Positions 63,885 to 64,000 of a stretch of 64,000 nt of DNA are shown here, in pieces. The notes under the pieces are model-generated. The model saw only the letters and a list, made by a program, of their open reading frames with translations, had not been told where the DNA came from and did not search any database. Numbering within the stretch: position 1 is the first letter of the stretch; each line of letters begins with the position of its first letter. Both the position numbers and the translations under genes were made by a program. Origin of the DNA: Oscillospiraceae bacterium (GTDB lineage: Bacteria; Bacillota; Clostridia; Oscillospirales; Acutalibacteraceae); the NCBI GenBank assembly GCA_031256825.1, contig JAIRPV010000004.1, forward strand, positions 17,402-81,401, written 5' to 3'.

Positions 63885-64000
63885 GTATAATAAGTACAGT
63901 AGCTGTGGCGAGGGATATCTTTGCAAAGCAATTGCCAATGACGAACTGCTCACCGCAGGTGTGGTATAATAAGCACAGTAGCTGTGGCGAGGGATATCTT
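63885..64000 (+). repeat. Second locus of the 79-bp tandem repeat family, truncated by the window end
   Basis: gtataataag at 63885 and 63964 (period 79); clearly related to 34051-34218. Confidence 0.95.

Follow-up and report, generated by a model that had tools for sequence, protein, structure and literature searches.

A short mobile element of gut and termite-gut Clostridia very probably inserts into and duplicates the extended -10 of σA promoters

The promoter of a gatA-type amidase gene lies in the first of two repeat arrays found in the stretch of 64,000 nucleotides that we analyzed (the window; G000:C7:17402-81401, with G000 designating its genome of origin, that of an Oscillospiraceae bacterium). 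All features of the two arrays are on the forward strand. The native -35 of the amidase promoter, TGTACA (34029..34034), was assigned by reading, with the spacing scored, and stands 17 bp from the first -10, which belongs to the first copy of the host's extended -10, TGTTATAAT (34049..34057), the left target duplicate. There follow a 70-bp element body (34058..34127) with a terminal hairpin, CACCGCAGGTG, at 34117-34127; a second copy of TGTTATAAT (34128..34136), where the TG in front gives TGTGTTATAAT, an extended -10; a second 70-bp body with the same sequence as the first (34137..34206); and a third copy of TGTTATAAT (34207..34215), the right target duplicate. The start codon of the amidase gene, at 34259, is 43 bp further on. 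Tandem repeat analysis of the window reported this array as 34049-34219, with 2.2 copies and 100% matches between copies.

The second array begins with a native -35, TGGACT (63863..63868), which is again 17 bp from the first -10. It consists of a first copy of TGGTATAAT (63883..63891), a 70-bp body of a diverged subtype (63892..63961), a 41-bp core of which recurs at G000:C25:118487, a second copy of TGGTATAAT (63962..63970), and the beginning of another body (63971..64000). A preliminary description of the window had recorded TATAATAAG at 63886 and 63965, a period of 79, and re-reading of the sequence bears this out, with CTGTGGCGAGGGAT...TTGCCAATGACGAACTGCTCACCGCAGGTGTGG following. It had also assigned the two loci to one repeat family, and indeed the core TGGCGAGGGAT is common to both, occurring exactly four times in the window and each time inside one of the two arrays. 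As the description stated, the window stops inside the second array; the contig, of 81401 bases, itself stops there, so that the size of the array cannot be read. What the description overlooked is that TATAATAAG, at the edge of the unit, represents the -10 box that the host promoter already had, together with a duplicate of it. Its register needs to be shifted, the natural unit boundaries being the -10 hexamers.

The window holds other repeats as well. Tandem repeats at 58753-59194 (217-bp period) and 6653-6999 (118 bp) are built around a AATTCCGAAATTTCGGAATT-type palindrome, and similar sequence is also found inside versions of the promoter element of about 280 bp elsewhere in the genome (L046, L052, L043, and L039). 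Arrays resembling simple sequence, of the kind TAGGAATTAGGGAGTAGG, lie at 48757-49059 and 5852-5906 (CCTAATTCCTATC..., CCCTATCTCCC).

A BLAST search of G000 with a 79-base query yielded 61 matches on many contigs (E ≤ 1e-3, best E 1e-35), far beyond what chance duplication would account for. Read in the register of the host, the locus is laid out as follows: a native -35 is separated by 17 bp from TGNTATAAT, next comes a 70-bp body whose end is CTCACCGCAGGTG, and after it TGNTATAAT once more and the 5' leader of a gene. An array with n bodies has n + 1 copies of TGNTATAAT, and arrays reach three full units, upstream of housekeeping-type genes. Bodies measure about 70 bp in G000 and some 95 bp in the related genera; among the right-end matches listed, most periods fall at 78-80 or 103-105. 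The right-hand 22 bp or so, which contain the hairpin CACC-GCA-GGTG, are conserved across species, the remainder of the body varying from one species to another; exchanges of A-T for G-C pairs in this hairpin are seen both in G000 and in Oscillospiraceae Emb289P1bin98 (G001). At many loci a long open reading frame with a motif like a ribosome-binding site begins within about 100 bp downstream. The downstream genes, named by eye from their translations, are functionally mixed and include those for an amidase, a YebC-like protein, triosephosphate isomerase, RuvC, and transporters.

Relatives of the element are present in other genomes, sporadically. Exact matches to the right end were found in three of the 14 genomes of the genus and, among the 397 genomes searched in the order, in one more (G244, 42 copies), most of the genomes compared being metagenome assemblies. 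The named carriers, one of which is Anaeromassilibacillus sp. An200, are Clostridia from guts and termite guts. Searches of the IMG/VR, phage, and plasmid collections gave no match to the element. A second, unrelated repeat family may also end at the -10 box: many left flanks of arrays in Candidatus Gallacutalibacter (L113, L122, L125, L129, L148, and L149) have CTCTGTCGCGGTGG...GGTCGGGGATATGGTATAAT in common, which looks like its right end.

The sites of insertion resemble promoters in having a -35 at 17 bp. In G000 the spacing between the left -10 and the best -35 match was exactly 17 bp at 27 of 28 usable loci; this match averaged 4.3 of 6 bases, as compared to 2.7 in shuffled flanks, and at least four bases matched at 71% of the loci, as compared to 16% after shuffling. 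At the right-hand copy of the -10 there is no -35 (2.1 of 6), but TGTGN stands in front of it. The orientation of the element is that of the promoter.

The -10 target is duplicated upon insertion. The evidence comes from positions at which the target sequence is free to vary. In a first set of loci from G000, the free base N before TATAAT agreed between left and right in 84% of cases within a locus, as compared to 24% between loci, and in a later set from G000 and G001 the corresponding values were 80-90% and 27-31%. Left and right 9-mers were identical in 60% of 35 units of G000, as compared to 12% of shuffled pairs (the maximum of 2000 shuffles being 37%), and in G001 in 81%, as compared to 21% (maximum 57%). 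Rare variants of the -10, such as TAAAAT, were copied together, as in TGTTAAAAT (L023), TGCTAAAAT (L068), TGATAAAAT (L072), and CGTTATACT (L070), and both copies of the -10 are also present at loci with a single unit. A comparison of left and right has no power in Gallacutalibacter and the ABMPRH genome, where TGGTATAAT makes up nearly all targets, and in Lab288P1bin84 (G010) only two of five units have matching 9-mers. Because CG variants are present at both ends (L070 and L089), position -3 derives from the target, and the duplication is therefore 8 or 9 bp. At L089 and L023 the direct repeats, of 15 and 21 bp, exceed the 9 bp that is usual; this may be due to chance likeness, or else to a partial unit left behind.

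Promoters that lack the element provided a further view of the insertion event. A 3.4-kb amidase region is about 81% identical between G001, a species of the termite gut, and its sister G010, and eight insertions in G001, together with their flanks, could be matched to element-free promoters of G010, a ninth being matched in part. The filled and empty pairs are L072/L108, L061/L194, L089/L183, L126/L198, L075/L187, L081/L190, L080/L198, and L145/L182, and their quality is uneven: the flanks of L145/L182 have diverged, L080 is a rearranged array, and the left flank of L081/L190 was matched by eye. As judged by reading, the empty promoters each have a single -10, at a distance of 17 bp from the -35. 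In the clearest pair, L072/L108, the empty site TATGATAAAATATTAGC corresponds to the filled site TATGATAAAAT-element-GTGTGATAAAATATAGTAAG (with longer flanks, TTGACATTCACGCGCTGGTATGATAAAATATTAGCAAGAAGGAG in L108 and TTGACTTTTGGGCGACGATATGATAAAAT-[element]-GTGTGATAAAATATAGTAAGAAGAG in L072), and the longest direct repeat is TGATAAAAT, of 9 bp. Orthologs of gatA in the genus were unusable as empty sites because the order of the genes upstream differs.

We conclude that the repeat is, very probably, a short non-coding mobile element whose target is the extended -10 (TGNTATAAT) of σA promoters, which it enters in a single orientation and which it duplicates over 8-9 bp. The target would be cut with a stagger of about 9 bp, as in transposons that leave target duplications, by a protein acting in trans that would recognize the conserved right end (the 22 bp or so ending in the hairpin). 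The right-hand -10 is predicted to be active, because the final TG of the element together with the duplicated TGN forms TGTGNTATAAT, an extended -10 of the kind that needs no -35. After insertion, the original promoter would be intact and a predicted second promoter would lie 79 bp downstream of it; insertion would also create a new target, into which arrays could grow. On balance, insertion is probably close to neutral, the element being a selfish one whose choice of target avoids harm.

Could the insertions instead have been retained by the host, each additional extended -10 raising expression of the gene downstream? This would be compatible with a mobile element, as an added selective layer. 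The orientation of the elements with the promoter, the TGTGNTATAAT at the right junction, and the presence of up to three full units ahead of housekeeping-type genes are in favor of such promoter multiplication, but the sister species has no copies at the same genes and the functions of the genes are mixed, and we regard it as unlikely to be the driving force.

How, then, do arrays grow? The preliminary description had proposed that arrays undergo concerted evolution. In G000 the mean identity of units was indeed higher within arrays than between them (0.887 and 0.783, with 10 within-array pairs), but three other genomes gave 0.769 and 0.754 (G001, four within-array pairs), 0.760 and 0.779 (Gallacutalibacter, nine), and 0.943 and 0.941 (the ABMPRH genome, two). 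Among the four genomes tested, concerted evolution is limited to G000 and is not a general rule. Moreover, the arrays of G001 are often mixed, with two subfamilies succeeding each other in both orders (L057, L075, L077, and L081). Given these mixed arrays and the absence of a within-array excess in three genomes, the main route of growth is new insertion into the duplicated -10, with some local duplication in G000. A partial unit is present at the right end in 12 of 31 selected loci of G000; such units point to later deletions and call for extra deletion or duplication events.

The same observations bear on the view that the repeats are simply a tandem duplication family, with unequal crossing over within arrays, dispersal by homologous recombination, and a -10 that is borne by the repeat and maintained by selection. 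The identical units at 34 kb, the partial units at the ends of arrays, and the within-array identity in G000 are all in keeping with this view, which we nevertheless consider most improbable. The base N and the rare variants of the -10 belong to the locus rather than to the repeat, single-unit loci have both -10 copies as well, and empty sites have the same variant of the -10 once; in addition, other genomes combine mixed arrays with no excess of similarity within them, and duplication cannot account for the first insertion.

An RNA-based explanation, in which each unit is a structured, riboswitch-like 5' leader with its own promoter, arranged in tandem, is hardly credible. Its attractions are the sense-oriented position between promoter and start codon, the exchange of A-T for G-C pairs in the conserved terminal hairpin, and predicted folding energies of -24.1 and -20.8 kcal/mol for the units in the window. 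Yet the z-scores of these folds, for single units, are weak (-1.35 and -0.70), three Rfam scans, permissive thresholds included, matched no described family, the bodies have no common fold between species, with just the 4-bp terminal hairpin recurring, the downstream genes are unrelated, and transcription is expected to start downstream of the body's first bases. The existence of orthologous promoters that lack the element largely refutes this reading. The position of the body's first bases also disfavors retro-copying as the means by which the element spreads.

The mobile-element interpretation calls for a mobilizing protein, and we searched for one. Domains of the Y1, IS256 (Transposase_mut), ISL3, and integrase-core (rve) transposases were not found in G000 or G010; for Y1_Tnp (PF01797), the genomes without a match are 97.7% (G000) and 86% (G010) complete. 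DDE_Tnp_1 gave only one 76-aa fragment in G000 and no match in G001, G010, or G244, and none of the five domains (Y1, DDE_Tnp_1, Transposase_mut, rve, and ISL3) was common to all element-bearing genomes. Indeed, G000, G001, G010, and G244 are almost empty of these common domains, which is unusual given so many repeats. Right ends that have no left partner nearby were examined as possible autonomous copies; no gene-carrying copy was seen among the matches listed in the stretches examined, and the search turned up only a related family of short hairpins. This family (about 38 bp, AGAACACAGCGAAGCGACSGAGCCCCACCGCAGGTGG) has the 3' half of the element and accounts for 45 matches in 0.77 Mb of G010, a few of which are full elements; examples come from stretches L168-L207 (for instance L182:5529, L201:13694 on the minus strand, and L206:10780), and its stem exhibits compensatory changes (CCACC/GGTGG, GCACC/GGTGC, and CCCC/GGGG) around the GCA loop.

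The Y1 pathway is known to leave no target duplication. That the repeat is of the REP/RAYT type, with a Y1 (HUH) transposase acting on its single-stranded hairpins, is scarcely probable: the conserved triloop hairpin at one end, the short hairpin family of G010, and the Y1_Tnp genes of G001 and G244 are in its favor, but G000 and G010 have no Y1_Tnp match and the target is duplicated. A tyrosine recombinase like that of Tn916 is also disfavored, because such an enzyme would leave a donor coupling sequence at one end instead of placing the N base of the host at both. The mobilizing protein may be of another type or may have been lost. More speculatively, and on balance rather unlikely, the element could be of a new kind, mobilized by machinery that is not a usual transposase and that recognizes the promoter as such, for instance by the -10 region when melted in a polymerase-promoter complex; active promoters would then be its attachment sites.

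Among known systems, the element most resembles the bacterial MITEs (Correia, RUP, and MITEAba12, among others; PMC10969869), which are likewise short, non-coding, gene-less, intergenic, and present in many copies, and which duplicate their targets. Its size and copy number (a 70-bp body and 61 matches) and its target duplication (the filled and empty pairs and the identity of 9-mers) conform to that class. However, we saw no terminal inverted repeats that match each other at the extreme ends; the imperfect inverted repeats CCTGTGGCGAG/CTCACCGCAGG of G000 lie at unequal distances from the two ends and are absent from G001, and our search for a parent transposon, in the stretches examined, found none. 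Several known MITEs carry or create promoters (PMC10969869), whereas here each insertion targets and duplicates the extended -10 of the promoter itself, so that repeated insertion gives tandem promoters. As is predicted for our element, Correia repeat enclosed elements create promoters beside genes (PMC10969869), but Correia brings its own promoter, whereas the element copies the -10 of the host and supplies only the TG and the upstream half. The BOX and RUP repeats of pneumococcus (PMC3049150) are similarly modular, variable in unit number, probably parasitic, and known as longer composites; the length of BOX varies through internal boxB copies, however, whereas in our arrays a duplicated -10 box of the host stands between whole units. 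REP sequences with RAYT transposases (PMC2817692) share a small conserved hairpin in intergenic repeats, and the short family of G010 is related to our element; the clear target duplication and the lack of a Y1 match in G000 and G010 set the element apart from them. Unlike an integron attC array, its 70-bp units have no cassette-size open reading frame and are bounded by duplicated -10 boxes, and unlike a CRISPR array, with its constant repeats and unrelated spacers, it is the long body that is repeated and the short -10 that is specific to the locus. In the open-access literature that we searched, we found no element described as duplicating the -10 of its host. We therefore file the element as a variant of the MITE-like elements rather than as a strict MITE, set apart by its choice and copying of the -10.

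If this interpretation is correct, a transposable element breaks into a promoter at its most essential hexamer and rebuilds that hexamer in a single act, which would allow it to live harmlessly in a compact genome. Tandem promoters, and also the horizontal spread of regulatory DNA, would have a natural route in such insertions, which would be a readable record of promoters that were formerly active. Finally, the element-free promoters of the sister species would make the effect on expression directly testable.
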